From the NCBI GenBank assembly GCA_934593275.1, contig CAKTQE010000002.1:1-64000 (forward strand): a stretch of 64,000 nucleotides of DNA, given 5' to 3'. Shown here one piece after another: positions 17,524-56,974 of this stretch. A model generated the notes under the pieces. That model worked only from the letters and a program-made list of their open reading frames with translations. It was not told the DNA's origin and ran no database searches. Both the position numbers and the translations under genes were made by a program. Positions within the stretch are counted from its first letter, which is position 1, and each line of letters opens with the position of its first letter. This DNA is from an uncultured Oscillospiraceae bacterium (GTDB taxonomy: Bacteria; Bacillota; Clostridia; Oscillospirales; Oscillospiraceae).

Positions 17524-17603
17524 AGAATGAACCTCCAAACAATTTTTCTTTATTATAGCACAGATTGCACAAATTTCCAGAGCCTTTCCGGATTATTCTC
17601 TAT

Positions 17604-17633
17604 GTTGTATTTTTATACAACTTATGCTATATT
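17604..17633 (+). promoter_or_regulatory. Promoter with palindromic operator candidate before the EamA gene
   Basis: TTGTAT (17605-17610), a 17-base spacer and TATATT (17628-17633) with an upstream TG form a promoter. The -35 box lies inside a perfect inverted repeat, GTTGTAT-TTTT-ATACAAC (17604-17621), which suggests a repressor site. Confidence 0.65.
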
Positions 17634-17650
17634 ATCCCAGGGTGAATAGT

Positions 17651-18559: not shown

Positions 18560-18588
18560 CCTTTCATCAACCCCTCAGAATGCACGAA

Positions 18589-18622
18589 CCCCCGCTGCCG
18601 TTTTGAATGACGGCAGCGGGGG
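18589..18622. terminator. Bidirectional terminator between EamA gene and recR
   Basis: A 12-bp perfect stem CCCCCGCTGCCG/CGGCAGCGGGGG with a 10-base loop lies between convergent genes. T-rich sequence (CAATTTATTTTC) follows on the plus strand. Confidence 0.85.
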
Positions 18623-18643
18623 CAATTTATTTTCTTGAATGGG

Positions 18644-42436: not shown

Positions 42437-43450
42437 TCAGGCGTTTTTCTGTGCCATCATGGCCCGATGCTGAATCATCTGGGCGGTGATGGAAATGGCG
42501 ATCTCTGCCGGGGTCTGGGCCAGAATGCTCAGGCCGATGGGGGTGGTGATGCGCTCCAAATCCTGGTCTGTGCAGCCGAATTCCTCTTTCAGGCGGCGGA
42601 ACACACCAGCTTTTTTGTGTGCGCTGCCAATAACACCGATGTAAGAGGCGGGGGTGCGGAGGATTTGGGCTTGCAGCACCGTGTCATAGGAGTGGCCCCG
42701 GGTCATGATGCAGACCAGGTCCTTTTCTGTAACGGTAATAAAATCACGGATCCGCTCAAAGTCCACCAATAGCACCTGCTCTGCCTGGGGGAACAGCCCC
42801 CGGTTGGCAAATTCCGGACGGTCATCCATAACAACGCAGCGGAACCCCACACGGGCCAGCACCGGAACCAGCTCTTGGGCCACATGGCCGCAGCCCAGGA
42901 CATAGACCCGACTGGAAGAACTGATTTGTTCCAGGAAGTATTCTCTTCCCTCCAAGGTCAGCCGTCCGGGGATCTGGCCCAAGGGCCTGGGGAATTGCCC
43001 CACGGTGGGTACCTGGCCGTCTTCTCCGCAGACATCCAAGCGGCCATTCTCGCAGAGTTCCTCCACCAGCCACACATCCCGGCCCTCCTCCATGGCCCTA
43101 TCTGCCTGACGGGCAATGTCGATGGCCTGGGCATCGTGGGCGGCGATAAAGTGGAAATAAACACTGCAATTGCCGCCGCAAATCATGCCAAGATTCTGAA
43201 CATCATCCCGGGTCAGGGTAAAATCCTGGCCCCGGGATGTTTGTTCTTCCAGGACTTTCTGGGCGATTTTCATGGAGCGATACTCCACCGCACCGCCGCC
43301 GATGGTGCCGCAGATGCGGCCCTCCTGACCCACCAGCATTCTGGCTCCCGCCCCTCGGGGCGTTGCACCGGAAGAAGTGATAACCGTCACCAGCACCAGG
43401 TCTTCCCCTTGCTCCAGCCGCTGCCGGATTTCATGGAACATTTTTTTCAT
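42437..43450 (-). CDS. XdhC-family molybdenum hydroxylase maturation protein
   Basis: The 337-residue protein has the XdhC/CoxI N-terminal domain (LVLVTVITSSGATPRGAGARMLV, GTIGGGAVEY, GMICGGNCSVYFHF) and a C-terminal Rossmann domain (VYVLGCGHVAQELVPVLARVGF, CIMTRGHSYDTVLQ, YIGVIGS). XdhC binds molybdenum cofactor and helps insert its sulfurated form into hydroxylases of the xanthine oxidase family. The Cys in MICGGNC is a likely cofactor ligand. It is the last gene of the operon that starts at the aldehyde oxidoreductase. Confidence 0.93.
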   Translation of the reverse strand: MKKMFHEIRQRLEQGEDLVLVTVITSSGATPRGAGARMLVGQEGRICGTIGGGAVEYRSMKIAQKVLEEQTSRGQDFTLTRDDVQNLGMICGGNCSVYFHFIAAHDAQAIDIARQADRAMEEGRDVWLVEELCENGRLDVCGEDGQVPTVGQFPRPLGQIPGRLTLEGREYFLEQISSSSRVYVLGCGHVAQELVPVLARVGFRCVVMDDRPEFANRGLFPQAEQVLLVDFERIRDFITVTEKDLVCIMTRGHSYDTVLQAQILRTPASYIGVIGSAHKKAGVFRRLKEEFGCTDQDLERITTPIGLSILAQTPAEIAISITAQMIQHRAMMAQKNA

Positions 43451-43462
43451 TGATTGACCTCC

Positions 43463-44068
43463 TTAAATGGGTACACTTCCGATTTCTTCTACAGTCCAGT
43501 CTCCGTTTTCCCAGCAAAGCCGGGTCACGGAGCCATAGGGAAGGGACACGGTTCTGATATTTTCCATCGGAATTTGTTGAATGCCGCAAAGAAAAGCACG
43601 GATCACCGTCAGGTGGGCGACCACCGCCACACTTTCCTGGGTTTTTCCTAGGATTTCTTTTAACGCACCCTCAAACCGCCGGGCGCATTCTTCCAGAGGT
43701 TCCCCACCGGGGGGCGGCAAGGTGGGGTCGTCTCCCCGCAGGGCATAGAGGCTCGGCCATCTTTTTTCGATTTCGGAAAAAGGCAGCCTCTCCCAGATAC
43801 CGGCATGTTGCTCCCGCAGGTCGGGGTGGATGCGCAGCAGAATGTCCATGGCCCGGGCCGTATCCAAAGCCCGGAGCAAAGGACTTGTATAGCATTGCCG
43901 GACTCCTTTGGCCCGGAGATAGGCCCCGGCAAGACGGCCCTGGTTTTCCCCCTCCCGGCTCAGGGGAATGTCCGTAATGCCGATACAATACCGGCCCGGG
44001 CCGGGAAACACCGGCGTTCCGTGGCGGACCAGGTACACATGGCGTGGCTTTTCCAAATCCTTGACCAT
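43463..44068 (-). CDS. Histidine phosphatase family protein
   Basis: The 201-residue protein has the phosphohistidine motif LVRHGTPVF, then SPLLRALDTARAM, WERLP and the second His in VVAHLTVIR. The family includes phosphoglycerate mutases and cobalamin-pathway CobC phosphatases. Its place inside a molybdenum hydroxylase maturation operon suggests that it removes a phosphate or nucleotide from a cofactor intermediate; this is inference. It starts 12 bases after the CoA-ligase gene. Confidence 0.88.
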   Translation of the reverse strand: MVKDLEKPRHVYLVRHGTPVFPGPGRYCIGITDIPLSREGENQGRLAGAYLRAKGVRQCYTSPLLRALDTARAMDILLRIHPDLREQHAGIWERLPFSEIEKRWPSLYALRGDDPTLPPPGGEPLEECARRFEGALKEILGKTQESVAVVAHLTVIRAFLCGIQQIPMENIRTVSLPYGSVTRLCWENGDWTVEEIGSVPI

Positions 44069-44080
44069 GGCGTTCCCCCT

Positions 44081-45271
44081 TTATTTCAGAATATGCCGCT
44101 TGCCCGGATACAAAGGGCGGTCATCACAGGACGCGGCAGAGGTTTCAATGTGGATGGATAAATTCGGATACAGAGAACGGGCAGCGGAATAGAGTTGGTT
44201 TTCCTGCCCGGGAAGCAATGTTTTTGCGCAGATGTATAGCCCATTTTCACACCGGGCGGTGTAGTCCACAAGGGCAGGGACGGAAAAGAGAGTGCTGTCC
44301 AATGCCTCTATGGAAACTGTTTTCTCAAGCCTTGACACCGGGCCAATACGCCGGGTGATGCCGCCACAGGGACAAGGGGGCAGGAAACGGGTATAGTCCC
44401 CGGTGCGGTATCGGATCAGGGGCATGGCTTCCAGGCCGACGGTGGTAATAACCAGTTCCCCATAGGCCCCCTGGGGCAGCACCCGGCCCTGGGAGTCTAC
44501 GATTTCCGCAATGATATGATTTTCCCGCAGGTGCATCCCCTCCAAAGCTGGGCATGTCACAGCACCACCCAGGCCGCACTCCCGGCTGCCGTAGTGGGGA
44601 TAAAGGGGATTCCCCAAAAGGAACTCCAATTCCTCCATAACCCCAGTGGGACAGGCATCTCCCGATACCAAGGCTCGGCGGATGGGAAGCCCGGGATACA
44701 GCCGCAGAAGGCCCAGCAGTGGTACCGGAAAGCCAATATAGGCCGTGGCCCCTGTTTGTTCTATCTGCCGGGCCGCTTCTTCCCAGCATGTCCCAAAGCA
44801 GCCACGGACAGGAATGGCCCCCAGGGACTCCACCGCCCTCGCAATCAGGTCTCCCAGGCTAAAGGCACCGGAAAAAGGAAAGGCAATCAGGCATTTTTCC
44901 CCAGGCGAGAGCATTTCCGAAATACCGGCGGCAAAAAAGCCCACGGTATGCTGGCAGTCTGCCGCCGTATAAAAAACCCGTTTGGCAGGGCCGGTGGTGC
45001 CGGAGGTGGCACCGGAAATCACCCGGCTGACCTGGGCCTGAGAGGTGGCAAGATACCGCCCCGGGTTGTCTGACAGCATCTGGGGCGTGGTAAAGGGCAA
45101 ACAAGACAGGGCATCCAAAGAAGAAACCTCACGGGGCAGCCCCTGGCTTTTGGGCAGACGGGCCAGGGTTTCATTCAGGCGGCGCAATTGCAGCTCTTGC
45201 AGGTTCTCCCGGGTCAGATGGGATATCCCCTCAACCCTCTCGATCCATTGTTCCAGTTTCGTCCGATTCAT
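44081..45271 (-). CDS. AMP/CoA ligase of the DVU_1553 type
   Basis: The 396-residue protein is an adenylate-forming enzyme related to phenylacetyl-CoA ligase (PaaK). It has SGATSGTTGPAKRVFYT (the P-loop-like motif), YPHYGSREC in the acid-binding region and YRTGDYTRFLPPCPCGG with a Cys pair. It would activate a carboxylate as acyl-AMP or acyl-CoA. No aromatic degradation genes are near, so the substrate is likely part of a cofactor or protein maturation step. Its ATG lies within the radical SAM gene, a 41-base overlap, and there is no strong ribosome site, which points to coupled translation. Confidence 0.85.
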   Translation of the reverse strand: MNRTKLEQWIERVEGISHLTRENLQELQLRRLNETLARLPKSQGLPREVSSLDALSCLPFTTPQMLSDNPGRYLATSQAQVSRVISGATSGTTGPAKRVFYTAADCQHTVGFFAAGISEMLSPGEKCLIAFPFSGAFSLGDLIARAVESLGAIPVRGCFGTCWEEAARQIEQTGATAYIGFPVPLLGLLRLYPGLPIRRALVSGDACPTGVMEELEFLLGNPLYPHYGSRECGLGGAVTCPALEGMHLRENHIIAEIVDSQGRVLPQGAYGELVITTVGLEAMPLIRYRTGDYTRFLPPCPCGGITRRIGPVSRLEKTVSIEALDSTLFSVPALVDYTARCENGLYICAKTLLPGQENQLYSAARSLYPNLSIHIETSAASCDDRPLYPGKRHILK

Positions 45272-46541
45272 AAAAGCAAGTCAGATAGTGGGCGCAGAAA
45301 GGTTTGATTTTTCCCTCGGCGTATACGTGGAGGCTGCAACGGTGCAGCCGTTCGATATTCAGATTGCCCGCGTCCTGGAAAACCATGGAAGAAAGGGTCA
45401 AGCTTCTGTGGCGCAGACAATACAAAAAGGTATCAAAATCCATTTCATCGGAAAGCTCCCCCTGGGGTGCCGCTTCCTGGGGATAACGCCGCCAGTGCCG
45501 GGCCACATACTCCCGGTTGTGGGAGGCATCGCATTTTCTCTGGGCGGAGTGGGTGATATTAGAAAGGGGCCGCAGCTTTCCCGTAGGCTCCACCAGGAAG
45601 TTGGCGTGAAACCCGCAGAGCGGATGGTCACATTGGGAGGGCATAAAGCTATCCAAGGGAATAGTTGCTTGTCCCGAAAGGTCCGCCATCAGATCATCCA
45701 GGGTATACCGGGTTCGGCTTCCCTCCGGGCAGCGGCCAAAATAGGAAACCGGCTGAAAGTGAATGCCCCGAACCCCAGGAACCCTTGTCTTTGCAAAGGC
45801 CACCAATTCCCCCAAATTCTCCGTATTGACCCCCGGTACAACCGTTGGCACCAGGGTGACCCCCAGGCCCAGGGCTGCACAGACATCGATCGCCCGGAGT
45901 TTTTCTTCCAGCAAGGGTCTTCCCCGGAGTTTTTCATAAATCTCCTGCCGGGTGCCGTCAAACTGCAAAAATACAATGTCCAGCCCCGCCTTGGCCAGGG
46001 CCTTGGCATATTCCACGTCCCGGGACAGCCTCAGTCCGTTGGTATTCACCTGAACATAGCTGCACCCCACCTCTTTGGCGTACCGCACCAGTTCCGGCAA
46101 ATCGTCCCGCAGGGTCGGCTCCCCGCCGGAGAGCTGTAGGAGGGGTTTTCCGCAGAGGGTACGAATGCGGTCAATGGCCTTTTTCACCTGCTCCATGGGC
46201 ATGTCCGCCTCCTGCTGGCCGCCGTCCGCAAAGCAGAAAGCACACCGCAGGTCACAGCGTTTTGTAACCTCCAAAAGGACACAGCAGGAGCCGGATTCAT
46301 GCTCCGGACAAAGGCCGCAGTTTTGGGGACACTGGGTTCCCAGTTCCCCCAAAGGCTGGGCGCACTGGGTCCATGTATCAAAATCCACATTGCCCCGCCA
46401 CACATCAGCCGAAAAGGCCCCATGGTCCGGACACTGCTTGGAAAGGAATACGGAGCCGTCTTCCCGCTGTTCCAGCTGGGCCGGAATATTTTTCAGGCAG
46501 ACCGGGCATACCGAGCGGGTTGTTCTGGGAAAGGATGCCAT
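45231..46541 (-). CDS. Radical SAM maturase (TrsS-like) of the hydroxylase locus
   Basis: The 436-residue protein has a Cys-rich N-terminus (C12, C15, C37, C60, C71, C75, C78, C86, C87) and then the radical SAM motif CDLRCAFCF (C96, C100, C103). GGEPTLRDDLPELV is the SAM-binding GGE segment. The many extra cysteines may hold further clusters. In related families the N-terminal CPxC site can be a selenocysteine; here it is Cys and the frame has no internal TGA. The partners (oxidoreductase, CoA ligase, methyltransferase) suggest cofactor or peptide modification; the reaction is unknown. AGGTG precedes the ATG. Confidence 0.88.
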   Translation of the reverse strand: MASFPRTTRSVCPVCLKNIPAQLEQREDGSVFLSKQCPDHGAFSADVWRGNVDFDTWTQCAQPLGELGTQCPQNCGLCPEHESGSCCVLLEVTKRCDLRCAFCFADGGQQEADMPMEQVKKAIDRIRTLCGKPLLQLSGGEPTLRDDLPELVRYAKEVGCSYVQVNTNGLRLSRDVEYAKALAKAGLDIVFLQFDGTRQEIYEKLRGRPLLEEKLRAIDVCAALGLGVTLVPTVVPGVNTENLGELVAFAKTRVPGVRGIHFQPVSYFGRCPEGSRTRYTLDDLMADLSGQATIPLDSFMPSQCDHPLCGFHANFLVEPTGKLRPLSNITHSAQRKCDASHNREYVARHWRRYPQEAAPQGELSDEMDFDTFLYCLRHRSLTLSSMVFQDAGNLNIERLHRCSLHVYAEGKIKPFCAHYLTCFYESDETGTMDREG

Positions 46542-46545
46542 TTTT

Positions 46546-47601
46546 TCACCTCATGCCGAAACATTCTTCTTTAAAAACAAGGTAGCTCAGATTATACGGC
46601 TCACAAAGGGATTCCACCGCCCCGGAGAGAATGGCCTGAACTTCTCCGCTGGGGCAGACGGCAGAGCAATTGAGCATCACCGCCAACTCCGTACAGGGGG
46701 CGGTAAAGGTTTTGGTCACGGCAATATCCCGGCCAATGCCCAGCATATCTACCTTTCCGTAATCCCCCTCAGCGGTCCAGGCCAGCAGTTTCAGGTGGGG
46801 AATATCCTGGCCAATGGCGGCCACTTCCCGCCGGACGGTTTGGGCCAAATCCATTAAATAGGCGTTGCCGTCAAAGTCATTGCAGCAGACGGTGGCGTGG
46901 TACTGGATATAATACTCGCTGATTCGGCCCATGGCCCGGCCAAAGGCTTCCCCGCCGTAGCCAATATCCGGCCTGTGCATGGAGGCAGACTGCCGGATCA
47001 TGGCCTGAGAAAGATCCTCCAAGCCAGCACCTGTCAAGGCACTGATGGGGATGACCCTGGCCTGGGGGTAATGGGTTTCCAGCCAGCGGCATTCCTGCCG
47101 TATTTCCTCCTGGGTCAGAAGATCGCACTTGTTCAGAACGATCAGATCCGCTTCCACCAGTTGGGTATGGAGGATATAGTGGATGTCGCTGTTCCCCGCC
47201 CGCAATTGAGCCAATACCTGGGGTTCCGTCAGCACCGTAAAAGGTGCCAACTCATAGCGGCCCGGGTAATCCCGTTGGAGGGTGTGGTAAACGTGATCCA
47301 AGGCCCCCACGCCAAAGCCGGGGATATCGGAAATCACCAGTTCACAGCCCTCCTTGTCAAAGAGGCTGTCCAGACGTTCAACCAGAGTCTTGGTGATGTA
47401 GCAGATGCAGCTGCCTGTCAGTTCCGAGGCATTGCAGCCGGAAAGAGCGGCCAGTTTGTGATCTGCCAGACTTTGCTGCCCCAAGTCATTGCTGATCATG
47501 GCGGCTTTGCCGTGGTGGGCAGAAAAGAACCTCGTCAGGGCCATCATGGTGGTGGTTTTTCCGGAGCCTAAGAAGCCGCTGAATACCGCAAACTTTTTCA
47601 T
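46546..47601 (-). CDS. CobW/HypB-like GTPase of the hydroxylase locus
   Basis: The 351-residue GTPase has P-loop FSGFLGSGKTT, SDIPGFG, and NKCD specificity motif (VLNKCDLLTQEE). It is G3E-like, a group that inserts metals in enzymes or moves metal cofactors (CobW, HypB, UreG). A mid-protein CICYITKTLVERL segment carries a Cys pair. I infer delivery of metal or cofactor during maturation of the molybdenum enzyme. Its ATG overlaps the stop of the C-GCAxxG-C-C gene as ATGA. Confidence 0.85.
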   Translation of the reverse strand: MKKFAVFSGFLGSGKTTTMMALTRFFSAHHGKAAMISNDLGQQSLADHKLAALSGCNASELTGSCICYITKTLVERLDSLFDKEGCELVISDIPGFGVGALDHVYHTLQRDYPGRYELAPFTVLTEPQVLAQLRAGNSDIHYILHTQLVEADLIVLNKCDLLTQEEIRQECRWLETHYPQARVIPISALTGAGLEDLSQAMIRQSASMHRPDIGYGGEAFGRAMGRISEYYIQYHATVCCNDFDGNAYLMDLAQTVRREVAAIGQDIPHLKLLAWTAEGDYGKVDMLGIGRDIAVTKTFTAPCTELAVMLNCSAVCPSGEVQAILSGAVESLCEPYNLSYLVFKEECFGMR

Positions 47602-48026
47602 GTGAGAACCCCCGCTCTATCTAATATTTCCACACATTTTTCGTAGGTTGCAGCAATAATACCCGGGCAATACTGCACTTTTTTTGCGGGGCTGATGCCC
47701 ACAATGTCCTGGCAGTCTGTCGCCTGAAATTCCTCCTCTGCCCACTTAACAAACCACTGGGTAAACTCCCCCAGGGCCGCCTTGTGGGCCGGATGCTCAT
47801 AGGCGGCTTCCTCCGGCTTTCCTGTAAAGTAGGAGATCATGCAGCAGCCCGCCGGCATACAGCCGCAAAGATAGCCGCTGCCGCCAATGCCGCCGTTGAG
47901 TCCCTGCATACTTCGGACAAAGCCGGGATTTTCCTCAGAAAATGTTTCCATCAACAAAATGGCCAATATCTGTCCGCATGCGTAACCGCAGCGGCTCAAC
48001 TCTAAAATCCGTTCTTCCAGATCCAT
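47598..48026 (-). CDS. C-GCAxxG-C-C family redox protein
   Basis: The 142-residue protein has the C-GCAxxG-C-C pattern of its family: SRCGYACGQ near the start and GGIGGSGYLCGCMPAGCCMI in the middle, plus C in DCQDIVG and YCPG. The family is found in anaerobes next to redox enzymes and often carries Cys or metal sites. The role here is unknown. An ATG at 48026 is chosen with AAAGGA upstream. It ends overlapping the GTPase gene. Confidence 0.88.
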   Translation of the reverse strand: MDLEERILELSRCGYACGQILAILLMETFSEENPGFVRSMQGLNGGIGGSGYLCGCMPAGCCMISYFTGKPEEAAYEHPAHKAALGEFTQWFVKWAEEEFQATDCQDIVGISPAKKVQYCPGIIAATYEKCVEILDRAGVLT

Positions 48027-48030
48027 CGGC

Positions 48031-48546
48031 TCACATCCTTTCGCAAACGAACAGCACATAACAGATGTGCTTTCCCTGGGGCGCACACACATGCTCCTGG
48101 GTCCAAAGGGCTTCCAGATAGTACGCCCGCCAGCTGCTTGTCATATCTTCGATATGCCGCACCGCAAACCCCGCTGTGCGGCACTGGTTGAGCAGCTCTA
48201 CCACATCCTCGGTCACGTCCGAGAATACCAGCTTGCCGCCGGGGCGCAGAAGTCTTGCCGCCTCCTGAATAGCCCCCGGCACATTGCCGCTGACGTAAAA
48301 GCTGCACTGGCTGAGAATACCGTCAAAGGAAGCGGCTTCCCAGGGGGTATGGAGAAAATCGCCGGGTTCTACGTCGCTTCCCCGGGGACACAGGTCCAGG
48401 CCCTGGGCTTCATATCCCTTTTCCCGCAGGAGCCTGACCCCGTCTCCGTCACCGGCTCCCATATCCAGCCAGCGGCAGCCCTGGGGCAGAAAGGCCAGTT
48501 CGATCAGATAGCGGCTGTGTTCCAGGCCGCCGGGATGGCCCTGCAT
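48031..48546 (-). CDS. SAM-dependent methyltransferase (TrsM-like)
   Basis: The 171-residue methyltransferase has SAM motif I WLDMGAGDGDGVRLL, then GLDLCPRGSDVEPGDFL, FDGILSQCSFYVS and LLRPGGKLVFSDV. It is the small arsenite/ubiquinone-type class I fold. Cys residues in DLCP and SQCS correspond, as I recall, to positions where some relatives have selenocysteine. The methyl acceptor is unknown; in this locus it could be the cofactor, an intermediate or a Cys residue. It overlaps the stop of the zinc-ribbon gene (TAATG). Confidence 0.87.
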   Translation of the reverse strand: MQGHPGGLEHSRYLIELAFLPQGCRWLDMGAGDGDGVRLLREKGYEAQGLDLCPRGSDVEPGDFLHTPWEAASFDGILSQCSFYVSGNVPGAIQEAARLLRPGGKLVFSDVTEDVVELLNQCRTAGFAVRHIEDMTSSWRAYYLEALWTQEHVCAPQGKHICYVLFVCERM

Positions 48547-48764
48547 TATTTATCCTCCAGGGCTTTCTCTACGGAAAGCACCTTGCCCAGGGCCAATTCC
48601 TCAGGGACGTAAATAAAGCCGCACTTGGGACACACTGGAAGCTCCACGGGAAAACCGTTGTCCAAGTACATGAACTTTGCCTTTCCCTTTTCCAGCTTGC
48701 ATTGGCATTTGAGACAGGTGAGCTTTCCCTCCGGGTCGATGGTATAGTAGTTTTTATCTGCCAT
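48546..48764 (-). CDS. Small zinc-ribbon/redox protein (DVU_1557 type)
   Basis: The 72-residue protein has two CxxC pairs: LTCLKCQCKLEKG and PVCPKCGFIYVP, a rubredoxin-like or zinc-ribbon arrangement. The middle segment KAKFMYLDNGFPVELP is typical of the family seen in these clusters. It is likely an electron carrier or scaffold for the neighbouring oxidoreductase. It lies 10 bases after the ferredoxin/CCG-domain protein gene and is coupled to the methyltransferase gene. Confidence 0.83.
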   Translation of the reverse strand: MADKNYYTIDPEGKLTCLKCQCKLEKGKAKFMYLDNGFPVELPVCPKCGFIYVPEELALGKVLSVEKALEDK

Positions 48765-48774
48765 GGCGTTCTCC

Positions 48775-51027
48775 TTACTCCCGGTTTACAATATTCATCC
48801 GGTGGCTGTAGGCTCCATGCACCCGGTACCCGCCCCCAATCGGCTCAAAGCGAACCCAGAACGTCACATTGCCCAGACGAAGGCTGGTCAGGCACAGACC
48901 GGTTTCTCCATCCAAGATTCCCTGGCCGGTTTCCCGCAGGTGCCGCAGAACCTGAACCACATCGGATTGGAGGATCATCCGGTCATCCATCATAGACTCC
49001 GCCTCCGGGGTGTATTCAATCACAAATTCCGGCTCCATTTCCGGCACCTCCTGGTTCCAAATCTGCTTCATCAGGCCGTATTTTAACCCCAAACGGTTTT
49101 TCCGCTTGGCACTGATATCCGGGCAGTTGTCCGCCGGGGTATTATAAACCAGCTCCAACAGGTGCATGGACCGGCGGCCCTGGCGGGCGAAGCGGTCCCG
49201 ACAGGCCATGCAGTAGCTTAAATAGGGCAAATCTGACCGCTCCAGGCACTGGACAGTCATTTCATCTGCCACCTCCCGGTTGGCATACTGGGTCAGGCCA
49301 CCATAGCCGCAGCAAGGAGCCTGATCTCCCTCATAGGGTGTTTGCATCACCTGGCAGCCCAGTTCTTCCGCAATGCGGCGAATGGAATCCTGGGTCTGCC
49401 GGTCTCCCCTGGCACCGCAGCCGTCATGAACCGCCACAGGCCCGCAAAACTGCCCATGGGGCGGCAGACCGATTTCTTCCAAGACTTCCCAAATCCCCCG
49501 AACCTGTTGGCCTTGACCGGTAAGCTGCTTTTTACAGGTGGGACAGCCCGCAATGACCACCGGGTTTCCAAGGCTTTCCAGCTTCTCCCGGAGAAAAGCC
49601 ACGGTGTCATCGTAAAGCTCATATCGACCCGCCCAGTCACAGATGGCACCGCAGCAGCCCAGCATCAGGGCAACGCCCCCTTGCAGGCGGTCACACAAAT
49701 CCAAATAGGCCGCTTTCACCGCCTGGGGGGCAATGGCGGACGCCTGACAGCCGGGGAAAAAGACGTATTTACAGGTTGTAAACCCCGGCTGGGCCAGGGA
49801 CAAAAAGGCCTCTCCGTTGGAAAATAGCATGTCCATCAGAGCAAACTCATGGGGGGCCAAGGGCATTTTTCCGGTGGTGACCATGTTTCTCCGGGCGATC
49901 AGGCAAACCTCTGCCATGTCATAGCCATTGGGACACAAGACGCTGCACTGGCCGCAGAGGGAACAGGCGTTAATGGGCTTGTTCATCATGTGGTCACCCA
50001 TGATGATGGAAACATTGTTGTAGATTTCCCGGGTCAGGACCCGGGGGAATTTTTTATAATGGCGCAGATAGGCGCAGCCCTTGATACATTCCTCGCACCG
50101 GCACTGGATGCACCGGGCCGCTTCCGCAATGGCTTCTTCCCGGTCTGTGCAGGCAATGCGCTTGCTGGGGGCGACACCCTCCAAGGAGGTATAGAGCCTG
50201 GTTTCCACGCTGCCCTCCTGGCCTCGGGTATTGGCAGGGTCCAGCTTTTGGGCCATACGGTCGGCGGAAAGGGCCGCTTTTTTGGCGGCGAAAGCAGCGC
50301 CAAGGATCCCCTGCCAGGGGCCGGTAATGAGATTTCTCTCCCGGCAGACCATCAGTGCTTCATCGGAATGATCCTGGGGATACAAGGCGTTGAAAACCGC
50401 AAAGGAAGCACAGACCAAATCAAATTTTCCCGCCTCCTGCCGGAAGCAGCTTTCCGGGTCAGCGTTCCAGACAAAACGGACATCCAAGCCAGATAGATCC
50501 GCCTCCGCCCCCTGGGGAACCTTTGGCAAGACCTGGGTCAGCAAGGCCCCGGCATCACTCTGGGAGAGATAGAACGTCACGGGGTACATTTTCTTGCTCA
50601 GTTCCCCGGCAAAAAACAGGGTAAAGAGGTCTGCCCCAAAAATTGCGGCGGTTTTGGTCTTTTTCCGCAGCAGTCCCCTACCCTTTCCGTGGCTGCCGTA
50701 GGCTACGGCGGCGGCTTCCAGTTTCCCCAGGGCAATGCCGTCTCCCAAGGAACAGAGCTTGCATTTCTCTTCACAGGGGGCCTCACACAGGGCCGACAGG
50801 ATATGGGGCAAGGGAGTGATTTTTTCGTAAAGCCGCAGGGCTTTGTCAAAATCCCCCTGGGCAATGGCCTGGGTCATGGCCTTGGCATCCAGCTTCAGAG
50901 GACAAGCGGCACTACAGTAGGCGGGCTGTTCATGGACGCACAGATGTTCCCGGGCTTCCAGCTCCTCTTTGGTAAACATCCGCTTTTGCCGGTAAATATG
51001 GGTGGAGGCCCGTTCTTCCAGGATCAT
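48775..51027 (-). CDS. Dicluster ferredoxin / CCG-domain oxidoreductase (DVU_1558 type)
   Basis: The 750-residue protein joins several modules. Residues about 25-100 are a GltD-like dicluster domain (CVHEQPAYCSAACPLKLDAKAM, CEAPCEEKCKLCSLGDGIALG). Residues about 120-300 look like the FAD/NAD Rossmann region that follows in GltD, but the GxGxxG is replaced by IFGADLFTLFFAG, so flavin binding is probably lost. Then come two 4Fe-4S binding sets (CIQCRCEECIKGC, CSLCGQCSVLCPNGY) and two CCG-type domains (PGCQAS, LGCCGAI, APCCGYGG). The likely role is electron transfer from or to the aldehyde oxidoreductase, similar to heterodisulfide reductase-type subunits. The start follows GAGGAGGTGATCC. Confidence 0.9.
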   Translation of the reverse strand: MILEERASTHIYRQKRMFTKEELEAREHLCVHEQPAYCSAACPLKLDAKAMTQAIAQGDFDKALRLYEKITPLPHILSALCEAPCEEKCKLCSLGDGIALGKLEAAAVAYGSHGKGRGLLRKKTKTAAIFGADLFTLFFAGELSKKMYPVTFYLSQSDAGALLTQVLPKVPQGAEADLSGLDVRFVWNADPESCFRQEAGKFDLVCASFAVFNALYPQDHSDEALMVCRERNLITGPWQGILGAAFAAKKAALSADRMAQKLDPANTRGQEGSVETRLYTSLEGVAPSKRIACTDREEAIAEAARCIQCRCEECIKGCAYLRHYKKFPRVLTREIYNNVSIIMGDHMMNKPINACSLCGQCSVLCPNGYDMAEVCLIARRNMVTTGKMPLAPHEFALMDMLFSNGEAFLSLAQPGFTTCKYVFFPGCQASAIAPQAVKAAYLDLCDRLQGGVALMLGCCGAICDWAGRYELYDDTVAFLREKLESLGNPVVIAGCPTCKKQLTGQGQQVRGIWEVLEEIGLPPHGQFCGPVAVHDGCGARGDRQTQDSIRRIAEELGCQVMQTPYEGDQAPCCGYGGLTQYANREVADEMTVQCLERSDLPYLSYCMACRDRFARQGRRSMHLLELVYNTPADNCPDISAKRKNRLGLKYGLMKQIWNQEVPEMEPEFVIEYTPEAESMMDDRMILQSDVVQVLRHLRETGQGILDGETGLCLTSLRLGNVTFWVRFEPIGGGYRVHGAYSHRMNIVNRE

Positions 51028-51055
51028 GGGATCACCTCCTCAGAAATTGCCAATA

Positions 51056-51077
51056 GAGAGGCGGTTGCCCGCCTCTC
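51056..51077 (-). terminator. Hairpin between aldehyde oxidoreductase and downstream genes
   Basis: Stem GAGAGGCGG/CCGCCTCTC with a 4-base loop. It has no T-run on the minus strand. It may weaken downstream expression or stabilise the mRNA end. Confidence 0.5.
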
Positions 51078-51119
51078 CATTGCAGCACAGAGATTTAGAA
51101 TTCAGAACGTATGTTTATC

Positions 51120-53876
51120 TCACTTTTCCAGGTCTTTCAGAGCGGCCAGAACCACCTCAGGCAGTGCGGGGACTCGGGTGATCCGGGCACCGGTGGCATT
51201 GTAAATGGCGTTCAGGATGGCGGGGTGCGGTGCATCCAGAGGTGCCTCGCCGCAACCGGCGGCACCGTAGGGGCCTTCGGGGCGGTAGGTTTCAACATAG
51301 TGCAGCTCGATGTCATCGGGAACATCCTTGGGATAAGGAATGCCGCAGTTTTTCAGGCTGGTGTGCTTGCTCAGGTCATCAAAGTCCTCAGTAAGAGCCA
51401 GACCGATGCCCTGGGCCAGACCGCCGTAGAAGTTGCCGTCAACCAGCAGCCGGTTCATAATGGTACCCACGTCTGCCACACAGGTGAACTTCTCAACAGT
51501 GACCTTGCCGGTCTGGGTATCCACGCAGACCTCCGGCAGGAACAGGGTGTACATGTATACGGAGAAGGGGTCACCCTGGGCGGTAGCCTGGTCAACGGGA
51601 TGGTCAGCACAGTAGGTGGCGACCCACTGGCCCTGTACCTTGGTGTCAATGCCATCGGCTACCATTTCATCATAGGTGCGGTAGGTGCCGTCCTCTTTCC
51701 GCATGGCGGTCAGCAGGTTCTCCGCTGCCAGACGGCAGGCGTTGCCGGACATGACCTGGCTGCGGGAGCCACCGGCGGGGCCGGAGTTGGGGGTGATTTT
51801 GGTGTCGTTCATCACAAGGCGAATCTGCTCCGGACGAATGCCCGCCTGACGCAGGGTCTCATGGGCAGATACCAGCATACCCATATCCGCGCCCTGGCCG
51901 TGATCCTCCCAGGAGGCGTACATGGTAACGCTGCCGTCGGGGTTCAGTTCCGCATAGGCCTGAGAGGAGTCCACGCCATCCAGACCGCAGCCATAAACAC
52001 CGGAGGAAACGCCAATGCCGTACTTGTAGCGGCCATCGGAAGCGGCGTTCTTTTCGGCAACACGCTTCTTGGCGGCCTCATAGAGGGGACGGGCCTGTTT
52101 ATACATTTCTTCCAGGCAGTAGACATCGGGCTTGTAGCCTGTGGGAATGGTAGAACCCTCGGATTCCTTATAGCAGTTCAGCTCCCGGATGTCAAAGGGG
52201 TCCATGCCCATCTTTGCAGCCAGAACGTCAATGGCGATTTCAGAACCCATAAAGGACTGGGGAGAGCCGTAGGCACGGAACGCGGAACCCCAGGCGTGGT
52301 TGGTAAAGACGGTAGTACTCTTATTGCGGATGGTGGGAATATGGTAGCCCGCGCCCACAAACTGGCTCAGCCGGTGGGTCAGCAGGTCGCCAAATTCGGA
52401 GTAGGGACCGTGGTCTACGTAGTTATCGCCCCACAGGCCCAGAAGCTTGCCCTTTTCATCGGCGGCCAGTTTGATGTGCATGAAAGCGGGGCTGCGCTTG
52501 CCGGTGTAGGTGATGTTCTGGAACTGGTTGAATACCAGAGACACAGGACGGCCGGTGATCTTGGCGGCAACGCCCAGAATGGCCTCGTTGGTGGGCGAGA
52601 ACTTATAGCCGAAGGTACCGCCGGCGTGGTTCTGAACCAGCCGCAGCTTCTCCATAGGAACACCGATGCCGTCAGCAATCATGGGCATATGCAGGTGAAT
52701 GCCGATGGACTTGGAATGTACGGTGAGCATACCGTCCTCATCGATATAGGCATAGCCACAGTCCGGCTCCAGGTGCAGATGGGGCTGGCGGGAGCAGTAG
52801 GACTCAATTTCCACCACATTGGGTGCGGAATCAAAGTCAAAGTCCGGGCCTTTGATACAGTTGGTTTCGTAATAGGCGTTGGGAATGCCGGGATGGATCT
52901 CAACGGCGTCCTCCGCAATGGCATCCATGGCGTTCATGTAAGCGGGCAGCTCTTCAATGTCCACTTTTACCGCATCGGCAGCGGCTCTGGCATGGGCTTC
53001 GGTATCGGCGGCCACAATGGCGATGGCGTCACCGAACTGGAAAATCTTCTCATCACACAGAACAGGACGCTCCCAGCCATCGGTTTTGTTGTTCAGAGGC
53101 AGCATGACAAGACCGTTGATGCGGTTCTTTCCACCGGCTGCCACAATATCCTTGGCGGTGATGATCTGGAACACACCGGGCATTTTTTCGGCTTCGGATG
53201 TATCAATGCCCTTGATATTGGCATGGCTGACCTTTGCCTGAACCAGGGCCAGACGCAGGGTGTCGGCGGGCATCTTCAGGGCATCGTCCGCGCCAAAGTC
53301 CCAAGTGCCGGTGACCTTCTGGGCGGCGGAGGGACGGATGTACTTAGTGCCTACAATGGAATCCTCCGTGGGCTTAAAGACCAGGTCCTCCTTGGTGATT
53401 TCCCCACGAATGACCCGGGCTGCATCCATGACCGCATCAATGAGGGGCTTATAGCCGGTGCAGCGGCAGAGATTCCGGTTCTTCTGGAACCAGTCTCTTA
53501 CCTCCTCCCGGGTGGGCGAGGGATTGTTGTCCAGCAGAACCTTGGCGGTCATAATAAAACCGGGGGAACAGAAGCCGCACTGGGCGCAGCCGTGGGCCAT
53601 CCAGGCCACCTGCAGCGGGTGCATATCGGAAATGGTGCCGATGCCCTCAATGGTGGTGATTTGCGCGCCGTCTTTCAGGCGGCTGAGTTTGGTGAGGCAG
53701 GAACGGGTGACCTTGCCATCGACAATAACATTACATGCGCCGCAGTGACCTTCTCCGCAGCCAATCTTACAGCCGGTCAACAGCAGACGCTCCCGCAGGA
53801 ACGAAGCCAGCGTTTCGTTCTCCTCAACCAGGACGGAACGGGTAATGCCGTTGATTACAAATGTTCTTTTGATCAT
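51120..53876 (-). CDS. Molybdopterin aldehyde oxidoreductase (MOP type)
   Basis: The 918-residue enzyme belongs to the xanthine oxidase family and oxidises aldehydes. The N-terminal plant-type 2Fe-2S site uses C40, C45, C48 and C60; the second uses C100, C103, C137 and C139, the same numbers as in Desulfovibrio gigas MOP. The molybdopterin-binding part has HAWGSAFRAYGSPQ, EDHGQGADMG, GGSRSQVMSGNA and AAGCGEAP, with E877 as the likely catalytic Glu. No FAD domain is present, so electrons leave through the 2Fe-2S clusters. The start follows GGGGAGG. The maturation genes follow downstream. Confidence 0.95.
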   Translation of the reverse strand: MIKRTFVINGITRSVLVEENETLASFLRERLLLTGCKIGCGEGHCGACNVIVDGKVTRSCLTKLSRLKDGAQITTIEGIGTISDMHPLQVAWMAHGCAQCGFCSPGFIMTAKVLLDNNPSPTREEVRDWFQKNRNLCRCTGYKPLIDAVMDAARVIRGEITKEDLVFKPTEDSIVGTKYIRPSAAQKVTGTWDFGADDALKMPADTLRLALVQAKVSHANIKGIDTSEAEKMPGVFQIITAKDIVAAGGKNRINGLVMLPLNNKTDGWERPVLCDEKIFQFGDAIAIVAADTEAHARAAADAVKVDIEELPAYMNAMDAIAEDAVEIHPGIPNAYYETNCIKGPDFDFDSAPNVVEIESYCSRQPHLHLEPDCGYAYIDEDGMLTVHSKSIGIHLHMPMIADGIGVPMEKLRLVQNHAGGTFGYKFSPTNEAILGVAAKITGRPVSLVFNQFQNITYTGKRSPAFMHIKLAADEKGKLLGLWGDNYVDHGPYSEFGDLLTHRLSQFVGAGYHIPTIRNKSTTVFTNHAWGSAFRAYGSPQSFMGSEIAIDVLAAKMGMDPFDIRELNCYKESEGSTIPTGYKPDVYCLEEMYKQARPLYEAAKKRVAEKNAASDGRYKYGIGVSSGVYGCGLDGVDSSQAYAELNPDGSVTMYASWEDHGQGADMGMLVSAHETLRQAGIRPEQIRLVMNDTKITPNSGPAGGSRSQVMSGNACRLAAENLLTAMRKEDGTYRTYDEMVADGIDTKVQGQWVATYCADHPVDQATAQGDPFSVYMYTLFLPEVCVDTQTGKVTVEKFTCVADVGTIMNRLLVDGNFYGGLAQGIGLALTEDFDDLSKHTSLKNCGIPYPKDVPDDIELHYVETYRPEGPYGAAGCGEAPLDAPHPAILNAIYNATGARITRVPALPEVVLAALKDLEK

Positions 53877-53912
53877 AATGCTGAGACCTCCCCTTTTTGC
53901 TACAATGCCAAA

Positions 53913-54164
53913 CTACTTGTGTGTACCGCAGGGATCTTTGTCAGGTCCGTTTCCGGTCAGATCCTGCAAACGCTGCATACCGCGGGCGGTGTAAAAAACC
54001 AGTTGGGACAGGCTTCCATCCAGATTTTCTCCCCGCAAGACCAGGGTATTGGCCGTTTCCAGATAGTCAATGGGCAGTGTCCGGCGGTAGGTCTTTCCGC
54101 TTACACTGTCTGTGACCTCCAGGGTGACCTCCCGGGCAGAGATTTGAAAGATGTCCTCGTTCAT
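53913..54164 (-). CDS. Small protein at the head of the hydroxylase operon
   Basis: The 83-residue protein is beta-rich: FQISAREVTLEVTDSVSGKTYRRTLPIDYLETANTLVLRGENLDG, then QLVFYTARGMQRLQDLTG. The tail ends DKDPCGTHK. I do not recognise the family. The ATG at 54164 has GGAGG 9 bases upstream. It is the first gene of the operon, 36 bases before the aldehyde oxidoreductase, so it may be a dedicated subunit, chaperone or regulator. Confidence 0.75.
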   Translation of the reverse strand: MNEDIFQISAREVTLEVTDSVSGKTYRRTLPIDYLETANTLVLRGENLDGSLSQLVFYTARGMQRLQDLTGNGPDKDPCGTHK

Positions 54165-54214
54165 GGTTTTTCGCCTCCATTCATTCACCCGATATGTGCA
54201 ACTTTTACAATTTC

Positions 54215-54263
54215 ATTATAACTTATAAGGGAAAGCATATACAACATGTAAAATTTTATAAGT
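54215..54263 (-). promoter_or_regulatory. Promoter and inverted repeat upstream of the hydroxylase operon
   Basis: TTGTAT (54239-54244), an 18-base spacer and TATAAT (54215-54220) read on the minus strand. The inverted repeat ACTTATAA (54221-54228) and TTATAAGT (54256-54263) brackets the -35 box and could be an operator. Confidence 0.6.
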
Positions 54264-54346
54264 CGTAGAAAAAGGAACGGAAATATTGTGCAAGGCTTCT
54301 AAAAATTGTTGACAAAATTTGAATGGATTTTCATAAAGCGCATTTT

Positions 54347-55303
54347 TTAGTTCCAGGGTTTTGGCAATACCAGGCTCACGCAGCTGTCACACAGCGGGAC
54401 GCCGGTCAACGGATGGCCCAGCTCCTCCCCATAATCTTCAAGGGCCTGTCGGACACCGGGGAGGTTTGGATTTCCCCAGTCATGCAGCAGCAGAAATCCC
54501 CCGGGATTCAGCCTGGGCCAGAAATACCGAAAACCGTCCAGGGTAACCTGGTAGAAATCCCCGTCCAGAGATACCAGGCAAAACCGTTCTTCCAGCCCCC
54601 GGAGAGACTCTGGGAAAAAGCCGGGATAGATTCTGGCCTGTTCCGGGTATGGTAAGGCTTTCAAAACCGTTTCCGGGTCTGTATTCCCATGGGCCTGCTG
54701 AAAGGCACAGCCCGCCCCGGCAAGTTCGGCAAAGCCCTGAAAGCTGTCAAAAAGATAGAGGACCCGCTGCGGCAAAAGGCGGTTGATACACCCGGCGAAG
54801 AATCCCCGGTAAACCCCCAGCTCCGCGGCGGCACCGGGAACCTTTGACACCTGGCCGCAGAGCAGTTCTAAAGTAGACAGCCGCACATAGTCCCCTGCCA
54901 GGGCCTCCGGCGGGAGTTGAGGCTTCCGCAGTTTTCCGGGAACAGGGATCACACGGTATTTAGAAAGCAGTTGATCAAGAATGTCTTTTCCCAAAATCGA
55001 CTCTGCCACGGTGCAGTTCCGGTTTCGGTCCTCCAAAACCCAACTGTCCTTTACATACAGTATTCTGTTTTCCGGCAGACCGATCTCCCGGCAGGTCCGG
55101 GCCACGGCCTGGGCGTGGCGGGTGGTTACGATCATCAGGCTGCACCGGCTGATGTCCAGCTCCCGGGGACGGCAAACCGGCTTTCCCATGAACATGGCAC
55201 TGCTTGGAACGGTTTCCACAAACCCATCGATGCTAAATTCCGGCAGCACCCGGTCCAGCAGCTCCGCCGCACCGCAGCCGGTACCCCAAAGATAGATACC
55301 CAT
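54347..55303 (-). CDS. TylF/MycF-type methyltransferase with N-terminal Rossmann region
   Basis: The 318-residue protein begins with a Rossmann-like unit (MGIYLWGTGCGAAELLDRVLPEFSIDGFVE, a PglD- or FkbM-type N-terminal region) and continues with a TylF/MycF methyltransferase domain (AAELGVYRGFFAGCINRLLPQRVLYLFDSFQGF, LVSLDGDFYQVTLDGFRYFWPRLNPGGFLLLHDWG). TylF enzymes methylate sugar hydroxyls and need magnesium, with the metal site in the LDGDFY and HDWG segments. It sits between the two Mo-related operons, with its own promoter. The substrate is unknown. The ATG at 55303 follows GGGGG by 7 bases. Confidence 0.82.
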   Translation of the reverse strand: MGIYLWGTGCGAAELLDRVLPEFSIDGFVETVPSSAMFMGKPVCRPRELDISRCSLMIVTTRHAQAVARTCREIGLPENRILYVKDSWVLEDRNRNCTVAESILGKDILDQLLSKYRVIPVPGKLRKPQLPPEALAGDYVRLSTLELLCGQVSKVPGAAAELGVYRGFFAGCINRLLPQRVLYLFDSFQGFAELAGAGCAFQQAHGNTDPETVLKALPYPEQARIYPGFFPESLRGLEERFCLVSLDGDFYQVTLDGFRYFWPRLNPGGFLLLHDWGNPNLPGVRQALEDYGEELGHPLTGVPLCDSCVSLVLPKPWN

Positions 55304-55330
55304 CGTTGCGCCCCCTTTCGTCATACATCC

Positions 55331-55358
55331 ATTATATCGGATTTGCACAATTATTCAA
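55331..55358 (-). promoter_or_regulatory. Promoter of the TylF-type gene
   Basis: TTGAAT (55353-55358), 16 bases and TATAAT (55331-55336) on the minus strand. Confidence 0.65.
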
Positions 55359-55377: not shown

Positions 55378-55406
55378 TTTACAAATCCTACAAATTGTCG
55401 TATAGT
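55378..55406 (+). promoter_or_regulatory. Promoter of the nucleotidyltransferase-importer operon
   Basis: TTTACA (55378-55383), a 17-base spacer and TATAGT (55401-55406) about 64 bases before the TTG start. The sequence TTTACAAATCC and GTCGTA recur loosely near the hydroxylase promoter, but the match is too short to call a shared operator. Confidence 0.65.
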
Positions 55407-55469
55407 AATTCTAAGCAAATTCATTTTGGTTGTAATTCGCTTTTGGAATCGGCACAGGAGGTGGGAAAT

Positions 55470-56396
55470 TTGCAGAATGCGGCCCTTATTTTGGCGGCGG
55501 GAATGTCCTCCCGTATGGGGGATTTTAAGCCCATGATGAGCATTGGCTCCATTTCCGTGGCCCAGCGGGTGGTGGCGACCTTTCATCGGGCGGGGGTGGA
55601 TAAAATCGTTATGGTCACGGGCTATAACGCCCCCATGCTTGAAAAGCATTTGTCAGACAATGGCATTATCTTTTTAAGAAATGAGGATTATCGCCAAACC
55701 CAGATGTTTGATTCCGTAAAAATTGGCCTTACCTATCTGCAAGACAAATGTGACCGGGTTCTGCTGACCCCTGTTGACGTACCGCTCTTTACCGCCCAGA
55801 CCGTGGAAAAGCTTCTGTCCTCCGGCAGCGCGTTGGCCTGTCCCCGGTGTCAGGGGGCTACGGGGCATCCCATTCTCATTGGTAGCCGCCTGATTCCCAC
55901 CATTCTGGCAGACTGCGGGGACCGGGGGCTGCAAGGGGCCATGGGGCGATGCGGGGAAGAAATGTGCCTGGTAGAGGTGGACGACCAGGGGACTCTAAAG
56001 GATGCAGACACTCCGGAGGATTTTTCCGCCCTGCTGGCCTATCACAATTCCCAACTGGTGCGGCCCGTTGTCAACGTCTCCCTGGACCGGGAGTTCACCT
56101 TTTTTGACCGGAGACTGGCCATGCTGTTGATGCTGGTAGACGAGACCCACTCTGTAAGGGCCGCCGGACAGCGGATGCAGATGAGCTATACCAGCTGCTG
56201 GAATATGATCAAGGCTCTGGAAAGCCAGCTGAACTATCCCCTGCTCCAAAGGGTCCAGGGCGGCGCAAAAGGCAGTCAAAGCTGGCTGACCGAGGAGGGA
56301 AAACGGTTTTTGGAGCGTTACAATGCCTATGAACAGGCGGTAAAAAACTACGCCGATTCCATTTTCGAAGACCACTTTGAGGGGCTGTTTGAATGA
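55470..56396 (+). CDS. MobA-like nucleotidyltransferase fused to ModE-like HTH (DVU_1551 type)
   Basis: The 308-residue protein has an N-terminal NTP transferase domain (LILAAGMSSRMGDFKPMM, VVMVTGYNAPML-like region, LLTPVDVPLFT, GHPILIG) as in MocA, which adds CMP to molybdopterin. The C-terminal part from about residue 205 (EFTFFDRRLAMLLMLVDETHSVRAAGQRMQMSYTSCWNMIKALE) is the winged-helix domain of ModE, with the typical tail RVQGGAKGSQSWLTEEGKRFLERY. A TTG at 55470 with AGGAGGTG 8 bases before it is chosen as start. It could both make the cofactor form and sense it, and so control these operons. The gene is divergent from the hydroxylase operon. Confidence 0.9.
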   Translation: MQNAALILAAGMSSRMGDFKPMMSIGSISVAQRVVATFHRAGVDKIVMVTGYNAPMLEKHLSDNGIIFLRNEDYRQTQMFDSVKIGLTYLQDKCDRVLLTPVDVPLFTAQTVEKLLSSGSALACPRCQGATGHPILIGSRLIPTILADCGDRGLQGAMGRCGEEMCLVEVDDQGTLKDADTPEDFSALLAYHNSQLVRPVVNVSLDREFTFFDRRLAMLLMLVDETHSVRAAGQRMQMSYTSCWNMIKALESQLNYPLLQRVQGGAKGSQSWLTEEGKRFLERYNAYEQAVKNYADSIFEDHFEGLFE

Positions 56397-56938
56397 AACG
56401 CCGTTTGTTTTTGACAGGACCCATCGGCTGCGGCAAAAGCACCGCCATCACTCAGGGACTTGGTGACCGCCGGAATCGGCTAAAGGGTTTCGTGACCCTC
56501 CGGGAGGGTCAGCCCTCCAAGCCGGAACGGTTTTGGCTGGAAACACTGCCAAAACGGGAACGGGCGGTATTCCTGGATTTGACGGGAGAGCAGCCGCGGG
56601 TCGATTTGCGTGTTTTTTCCGGCCTGGGCGTTCAGAGTCTTCAAAAAGGCCCTCTTCTTTTAGATGAGATTGGCGGTATTGAACTGCTGTGTCCTGCGTT
56701 TCTGGAAGCTTTGGAAGAAGTCCTATCCGGTGAGGCACCGGTTTTAGGGGTTGTAAAGCTCTCTGAATCCAGTATGGCCTTGGCCCGGTGTCTGGGGCTT
56801 GCGGAGGAATATGGAACCGCCGCTGAACAGCTGCGCTGCCTCTTGGCACGAGATGGGCAGACAGTGCTTTACACCTGTGGACAATTTGACCCCCTGGCCC
56901 AGGATTTGGTAGGGCTGTGGGCAAAGGAATACTTATAG
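56393..56938 (+). CDS. THEP1-like P-loop NTPase
   Basis: The 181-residue protein has a Walker A GPIGCGKST at residues 9-17 and a Walker B-like LLLDEIGGIELL, in the layout of nucleoside-triphosphatases of the THEP1/YjdF type. A basic motif (KRRLFLTG) begins the protein. Its ATG overlaps the stop of the nucleotidyltransferase gene as ATGA. Such NTPases occur in cofactor loci, but the role here is unknown; nucleotide handling for a cytidylylated cofactor is one option. Confidence 0.82.
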   Translation: MKRRLFLTGPIGCGKSTAITQGLGDRRNRLKGFVTLREGQPSKPERFWLETLPKRERAVFLDLTGEQPRVDLRVFSGLGVQSLQKGPLLLDEIGGIELLCPAFLEALEEVLSGEAPVLGVVKLSESSMALARCLGLAEEYGTAAEQLRCLLARDGQTVLYTCGQFDPLAQDLVGLWAKEYL

Positions 56939-56974
56939 AGAAGGACTGAAATATTTTTAGAGAGGAGCGGGTCC

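Follow-up and report, generated by a model that had tools for sequence, protein, structure and literature searches.

Why is the gene for a MOP-type molybdopterin aldehyde oxidoreductase (AOR) followed, in one operon, by genes for a radical S-adenosylmethionine (SAM) enzyme, a methyltransferase and an adenylating ligase? The question is raised by a minus-strand gene series in a 64,000-nucleotide stretch of DNA from an uncultured Oscillospiraceae bacterium (assembly GCA_934593275.1, contig CAKTQE010000002.1, positions 1 to 64,000; hereafter the window), in which AOR precedes a dicluster iron-sulfur protein (DIC, with the C-terminal domain DIC-C), a small zinc-finger protein (ZNR), the methyltransferase (MT), a C-GCAxxG-C-C protein (CGCA), a CobW-like GTPase, the radical SAM enzyme (TrsS), the ligase, a histidine phosphatase and an XdhC relative. 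A preliminary description of this locus proposed a single set of accessory genes, dedicated to a modification of the enzyme or its cofactor. The explanation that we favour, tentatively, moves the suspected target away from the molybdenum centre: the TRS module, comprising MT, TrsS, the ligase and usually CGCA, may instead mature the electron-transfer unit formed by DIC-C and ZNR.

On this proposal the operon would consist of two modules, the first containing AOR, helpers of its molybdenum cofactor (XdhC, a MocA-like transferase, and the phosphatase) and the putative electron acceptor DIC with ZNR, and the second being TRS, with the DIC-C/ZNR unit as its client. TrsS would perform radical chemistry at an unactivated carbon in the manner of the archaeal tetraether lipid synthase (Tes), aided by a conserved cysteine or selenocysteine that Tes lacks, the ligase would adenylate a carboxylate, and MT would methylate, the product being a group that is borne by the DIC/ZNR complex or is required for docking in it. 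The near-invariant C-terminal residues of ZNR, LEDK, would be a candidate site, and the question of what the radical SAM enzyme does becomes directly testable by mass spectrometry in Desulfovibrio vulgaris.

TRS and its DIC-C and ZNR companions

Across 88 distinct TrsS places with sufficient flanking sequence, DIC-C and ZNR are found near TrsS (within 9 kb) at 84, MT at 81, the ligase at 79, CGCA at 75, and AOR at 72, a count that is biased toward AOR since most of these places were found via AOR. At 16 TrsS places AOR is missing or more than 9 kb away, and 12 of these retain both DIC-C and ZNR. Five AOR-less genomes from a phylum sample described below (loci L138, L139, L142, L146, and L152) keep DIC-C, ZNR, MT, and TrsS, four of them with the ligase, and the short stretch available from a sixth (L115) holds TrsS and the ligase. 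Furthermore, in genomes G012, G013, and G022 an AOR-DIC-ZNR locus stands apart from a TRS module that carries its own DIC-C and ZNR. Thirteen sister MOP-like loci gave no match to ZNR, MT, CGCA, or the ligase, with weak DIC matches in five (19–106 bits) and a single TrsS match of 19 bits. We favour DIC-C/ZNR as the client because it accompanies TrsS more often than AOR does, because modules that lack AOR or are unlinked to it keep a DIC-C and ZNR of their own, and because sister oxidoreductases occur without TRS, with AORs of divergent pocket occurring with it.

Additional support for this reading comes from the two proteins themselves. DIC or DIC-C shares one open reading frame, defined from stop to stop, with ZNR in ten distinct cases, and LEDK forms the C-terminus of ZNR in 108 of 119 distinct reading frames, with no comparable conserved tail in the other operon families compared. 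DIC-C has a predicted RelE/ParE/BrnT-like fold and weak matches to DUF4258, the Pfam model GPP34 scoring slightly better than DUF4258 (2 of 40, best E 0.0015). ZNR matches TIGR03830 in 22 of 40 (best E 1.7e-4), with other zinc-binding models scoring alike, and profile searches against PDB sequences, run for both ZNR and DIC-C, returned only weak or chance matches. By predicted fold and these weak matches DIC-C may resemble the RelE/ParE/HigB/BrnT toxins, ZNR weakly matches the MqsA/YgiT zinc-finger antitoxins, and the order of a RelE-like unit followed by a zinc-finger unit is shared by known toxin-antitoxin pairs. Unlike RelE-type toxins, however, DIC-C belongs to an iron-sulfur redox protein, and toxin activity is not implied; a literature search for DUF4258 together with YgiT found nothing. 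ZNR also resembles the amino-group carrier protein LysW/ArgW (weak match in 3 of 40): both are small zinc proteins whose C-terminal tail is conserved, but the tail of ZNR is LEDK, and the operon genes include no ATP-grasp ligase.

A bolder version of this proposal, which we regard as quite improbable, would make ZNR itself the carrier. The lysine of LEDK would bear a new prosthetic group, derived from an acid that is adenylated and attached by the ligase, methylated by MT, and completed by TrsS with its cysteine or selenocysteine, and ZNR would dock like an antitoxin on the RelE-like DIC-C. The resulting redox arm would take electrons from AOR and elsewhere serve double-cubane or BcrA-type systems; if this is true, a toxin-antitoxin-type pair has been repurposed as a redox cofactor arm.

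Co-inheritance with AOR and the case for and against a modified oxidoreductase

Gene neighbourhoods were surveyed in the best 80 of 536 AOR-relative loci from named genomes, many of which end at contig ends. The series AOR-DIC-ZNR-MT-CGCA-TrsS-ligase is found in this order in Oscillospiraceae, Lachnospiraceae, Megasphaera, Desulfovibrionaceae, Desulfobulbaceae, and Chloroflexi, and its recurrence in lineages as different as Clostridia, Desulfovibrionaceae, and Chloroflexi indicates that the arrangement is more than chance. DIC is present at 74 of the 80 loci, ZNR at 69, CGCA at 62, MT at 58, the ligase at 55, and TrsS at 52. CobW, present at only three and in the window, is an occasional extra outside the conserved series; it adjoins TrsS in L033, L108–L110, L126, and L163, and the two are also paired at sites apart from AOR. 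XdhC, the nucleotidyltransferase, and the phosphatase lie either 3' of the series or in a separate unit of their own, with the phosphatase and XdhC grouped with the nucleotidyltransferase, away from TrsS, in many Clostridia loci.

A search for TrsS in 44 genomes, from 44 of the 80 AOR loci, found it over the model cut-off in 40; of the other four, G016 has a 487-bit match containing one TGA, G021 a contig-end fragment, and G015 and G027 no match. All 14 control genomes have TrsS matches at E 0.001, with none over the cut-off, and at E 1e-60 three archaeal controls still match, again below it. At 13 AOR loci at least about 9 kb of sequence follows AOR with no TrsS, and 12 of these genomes have TrsS over the cut-off elsewhere, the exception being L056 (G015). 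That the genes are neighbours by habit, with no shared function, is therefore barely credible: gene order is conserved over long distances, making hitch-hiking conceivable, but the persistence of co-occurrence in unlinked loci largely refutes it.

In the phylum of G013 (247 genomes), TrsS is over its cut-off in 29 genomes, AOR in 23, and both in 22. The sole AOR-positive genome without TrsS (G253) has contig-end fragments, and seven genomes have TrsS but no AOR above the threshold, a partial AOR being present in one of them (G136). In the class of G032, a Blautia (243 genomes), AOR and TrsS are over cut-off in the identical 12 genomes, G378 having only a truncated, sub-cut-off AOR. In the family of G034, a Fundidesulfovibrio (288 genomes), where AOR was taken as a match to Desulfovibrio gigas AOR at E 1e-300 and TrsS as a match at E 1e-60, AOR is found in 181 genomes and TrsS in 187 (183 over cut-off), with both in 175, AOR only in six, TrsS only in 12, and neither in 95. 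AOR lies at a contig end in G253 and in three of the six AOR-only family genomes (G027, G620, and G795), and in five of the 12 TrsS-only genomes (G628, G682, G705, G708, and G759) the sequence between the contig start and TrsS is too short to accommodate AOR. These distributions support a dedicated, co-inherited set of accessory genes tied to the TRS-linked AOR clade, and the co-inheritance suggests that their products are needed. The preliminary description is supported to this extent, but its seven accessory genes are not one unit, CobW being occasional and the phosphatase and XdhC often apart from TrsS; its refuting condition, accessory genes widespread without a molybdenum hydroxylase, is borne out only in part, TrsS without AOR in six of the 29 TrsS-positive phylum genomes showing the two to be separable, but not widely so.

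That AOR over its cut-off is seldom found without TrsS, a dependence running mainly in this direction in the phylum sample, speaks for the earlier idea that the target of TrsS, MT, and the ligase is AOR, either the protein or its molybdopterin cofactor, as do the absence of TRS beside the sister enzymes and the residues W650 and H653 (D. gigas numbering), which all 104 TRS-type AORs have and the 13 sisters lack. We nonetheless consider this idea unlikely. The AOR of D. gigas (1sij, 1vlb), a full-length homologue of the window AOR, is among the best-studied molybdenum hydroxylases (PMC10223205, in part). The AOR of G729 is 100% identical over 906 residues to this crystallised enzyme, and is followed by DIC, ZNR, MT, CGCA, TrsS, the ligase, XdhC, and the phosphatase; the same operon thus surrounds the gene of that exact protein, with no CobW match in the part of the stretch read, unlike the window. 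In the available portions of the structural reports, the molybdenum ligands of the as-isolated crystals are two dithiolene sulfurs, two oxo groups, and OH/water (PMC3877041), the sulfurs coming from a pterin in its cytosine-dinucleotide form (PMC3877041; PMC10223205). There is therefore no evident sign in this case of TRS having stably modified AOR or its cofactor, contrary to the product first proposed. Additionally, TRS exists without AOR, and H653 is absent in all six divergent AORs (1040–1064 bits) that keep TRS. W650, H653, and the benzaldehyde pocket are prominent amongst the 65 columns near-unique to TRS-type AORs, with no modification site singled out. Glu869 is present in 103 of the 104 TRS-type AORs, the remaining one having a gap.

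It is very improbable that TRS provides molybdenum with a ligand, such as sulfur or selenium, so labile that it is lost in purification; sulfurases are not known to require a radical SAM enzyme, ligase, or methyltransferase. The operon does include an XdhC relative, TrsS is named as a selenoprotein family in the accessible part of a review (PMC13188914), in line with the TGA of L120 described below, and samples of D. gigas AOR range from fully active to inactive, with dithionite plus sulfide restoring activity, according to the portion of PMC3877041 available. The same portion describes an as-isolated enzyme that has no sulfido ligand, is active without one, and is inhibited reversibly by cyanide (PMC3877041).

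In a small-molecule pathway, a reading that we think unlikely, a substrate would be produced or altered by TrsS and MT, its aldehyde oxidised by AOR, and the acid activated by the ligase, leaving DIC and ZNR to carry electrons only. An acid-CoA ligase is a natural companion for an aldehyde oxidase that precedes it, and in the PDB the relatives of this ligase are chains of phenylacetate-CoA ligases (4r1l, 2y4o). TrsS lies beside HGD-D-family double-cubane-like proteins in L139, L157, and L164 by profile, Pfam agreeing for L139 and L164 but not for L157, with a BcrA-type ATPase also beside TrsS in L139; known HGD-D and BcrA-type members act on acyl-CoA. In D. gigas AOR benzaldehyde is sandwiched between Phe425 and Tyr535 (PMC4726530, in part), and each of these residues is kept in 102 of the 104 TRS-type AORs, suggesting one common substrate. 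However, the six divergent AORs retain TRS with a rebuilt pocket, Phe425 being changed in all six and Tyr535 in two, and DIC-C and ZNR persist at most TRS places that lack AOR (12 of 16). TRS therefore tracks DIC-C/ZNR better than it tracks the substrate pocket.

Several observations weigh against DIC-C/ZNR as the client of TRS. Both are missing near TrsS at four of the 88 places (L125, L126, L164, and L170), the ZNR matches in AOR-less loci are weak (19–50 bits), an internal start is possible in the ten shared reading frames, and DIC-C and ZNR may be retained as neighbours only. The co-occurrence of AOR and TrsS by Fisher tests (p of 2.1e-54 in the family, 2.4e-24 in the phylum, and 1.5e-20 in the class) ignores shared ancestry. 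AOR occurs without TrsS in six of the 181 family genomes (G027 included), in G253, and in G015, and G378, with its sub-cut-off AOR, carries AOR-DIC-ZNR-MT-CGCA-ligase without TrsS. Furthermore, the D. gigas argument uses structures of AOR alone, from which a labile group could be lost, and the activity of that enzyme is variable.

TrsS and the tetraether lipid synthase

The closest solved relative of TrsS, by both sequence and fold (TM-score of 0.79), is the archaeal tetraether lipid synthase (7tol; GDGT-MAS/Tes, MJ0619). The window protein exceeds the cut-off of the TrsS model NF045646 (504 versus 490 bits) and fails that of the Tes model NF045702 (290 versus 450). With the metal ligands and labile methionine of Tes taken from the accessible part of the Tes paper, the equivalent window residues are C12, C15, C37, and H40 for the rubredoxin site, C71, C75, C78, and H81 for the N-terminal cluster, C96, C100, and C103 for the radical SAM cluster, and M386 for the labile methionine, and all are kept in 97–100% of the rows with any residue at the position (111 TrsS). 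The putative ligands C309, C402, and C416, kept in 97–100% of the same set, align with the cysteines of the Tes C-terminal cluster. TrsS differs from Tes in sitting in a bacterial molybdenum enzyme operon and in an additional conserved cysteine (Cys86 in the window), present in 109 of 111 rows at a position that is isoleucine in Tes. In L120, from a Synergistaceae assembly (G016), an in-frame TGA at 2594–2596 (minus strand) occupies this cysteine position and is probably a selenocysteine codon; the excerpted list of radical SAM selenoprotein families in a 2026 review includes TrsS (PMC13188914). A second TrsS, in G427, contains one TGA. An idea of pterin methylation, taken from MJ0619, was dropped as the Tes paper, in its accessible part, describes being unable to confirm such an annotation.

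A Cys-rich loop (CC or CxC) is found in 86 of 92 AOR-type TrsS proteins and is lacking in all eight CobW-adjacent ones (the window included) and all 11 of HGD type, where types were assigned by hand per locus, the CobW-adjacent proteins come mostly from a single clade, and a cruder CC-only test classes a few loci differently. This hints that CobW may substitute for the role of the loop. In L034 the loop region of TrsS (~17200–18900) contains a long low-complexity insertion of SGQASGQAF-type repeats, and in L166 the place directly 5' of TrsS, held by CobW in L163, is taken by a DUF5714 protein (8853–9572) weakly similar to the C-GCAxxG-C-C type. TrsS pairs, one member being shorter or more divergent, occur with a PaaK-like ligase in L157 (6885–9471), L164 (2646–5238), and L123 (11938–15931), with an HGD-D-like protein near the pair in L157 and L164. 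TRS modules also lie divergently beside an aldehyde ferredoxin oxidoreductase gene in L122 (6153–8111) and 3' of a MopB-type molybdopterin oxidoreductase in L121 (5942–7987).

Operon layout and neighbouring genes

The ten genes from AOR to XdhC are open frames on the minus strand at 42437–53876, in the order and tight spacing first described and with identities confirmed by family scans (NCBIfam, Pfam), and two further genes lie upstream, up to 55348 (Table 1). The order of transcription is TylF-like methyltransferase, U1, AOR, DIC, ZNR, MT, CGCA, CobW, TrsS, ligase, phosphatase, and XdhC. TrsS and the ligase overlap by 41 nt, CobW and CGCA by 4 nt, and ZNR and MT by 1 nt; four further joints have gaps of 4–12 nt, and DIC and AOR are 92 nt apart. 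The overlap of CGCA with MT needs the first ATG of CGCA, the homologue-based start being near 48023. The Pfam scan of DIC gave no Pyr_redox match.

Table 1. Genes and domains of the operon and its surroundings in the window
Feature	Position	Strand	Evidence and remarks
XdhC-type molybdenum hydroxylase maturation factor	42437..43450	-	NF045664 321.9 bits (cut-off 350); PF13478, PF02625
Histidine phosphatase, CobC-like	43463..44068	-	PF00300; best NCBIfam TIGR03162, under cut-off
PaaK-like adenylating ligase, DVU_1553-like	44081..45271	-	NF045666 295.9 bits (just under cut-off 300)
TrsS, radical SAM enzyme, tetraether lipid synthase homologue	45231..46541	-	NF045646
CobW-like GTPase, occasional TrsS partner	46546..47601	-	PF02492
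CGCA, C-GCAxxG-C-C protein, DVU_1555 family	47598..48092	-	NF045669 129 bits (cut-off 103)
MT, SAM-dependent methyltransferase, DVU_1556-like	48031..48546	-	NF045667 98.9 bits (under cut-off 155)
ZNR, 72-aa CxxC..CxxCG zinc finger, LEDK end	48546..48764	-	NF045645 93 bits (cut-off 60); PF24292
DIC-C, C-terminal domain of DIC	48778..49032	-	RelE/ParE/BrnT-like fold, predicted
DIC, Fer4_20, 4Fe-4S dicluster and CCG protein, 750 aa	48775..51027	-	NF045663 788 bits (cut-off 530); Pfam
AOR, MOP-type molybdopterin aldehyde oxidoreductase, 918 aa	51120..53876	-	NF045668 1541 bits (cut-off 1100); best PDB 1sij, 1dgj
U1, small protein, ~83-91 aa, C-terminal DPCGxH motif	53913..54188	-	5' of AOR in Clostridia
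TylF-like methyltransferase, 5' of U1	54347..55348	-	PF05711
MocA-like nucleotidyltransferase with ModE/LysR-type DNA-binding domain, divergent	55395..56396	+	NF045665 187.8 bits (cut-off 315); TIGR00637 below cut-off; PF12804, PF00126
NTPase, FecCD permease, ABC ATPase, periplasmic binding protein, 3' of nucleotidyltransferase	56393..59893	+	PF03266, PF01032, PF00005, PF01497

NCBIfam models exist for AOR, DIC, ZNR, MT, CGCA, TrsS, the ligase, XdhC, and the nucleotidyltransferase, and the window MT, ligase, XdhC, and nucleotidyltransferase score under the curated cut-offs. Five of the models are named for DVU_1551, 1553, 1555, 1556, and 1557 of D. vulgaris, and DVU_1559 is the aldehyde oxidoreductase of that organism according to part of PMC10920352, so that the parallel with D. 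vulgaris drawn in the preliminary description is upheld. The DVU_1551-DVU_1559/TrsS set (NF045645, NF045646, NF045663–NF045669) comprises the same gene families and, by model names, the same D. vulgaris genes, to which the window adds the CobW-like GTPase, U1, and the TylF-like gene; the model names carry no function. In agreement with the earlier view that the chemistry is undescribed, no function or chemistry for the gene set was found in the open-access literature, nor were papers connecting D. gigas AOR with the other operon products, and a literature search by DVU locus tags returned, in the text portions available, only DVU_1559 and nothing for the remaining tags.

U1 is found in 43 of the 80 AOR loci as well as in the window, where its start is probably near 54164, and has neither a Pfam nor an NCBIfam match; its conserved C-terminal motif, DPCGxHxH, may mark a metal- or AOR-binding helper. 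Relatives of the TylF-like gene occur in 26 of the 80 loci, often 5' of AOR. On the plus strand, the FecCD-type ABC importer at 56975–59893 is one that we take, from its position, to be possibly a molybdate/tungstate importer of MolBCA type.

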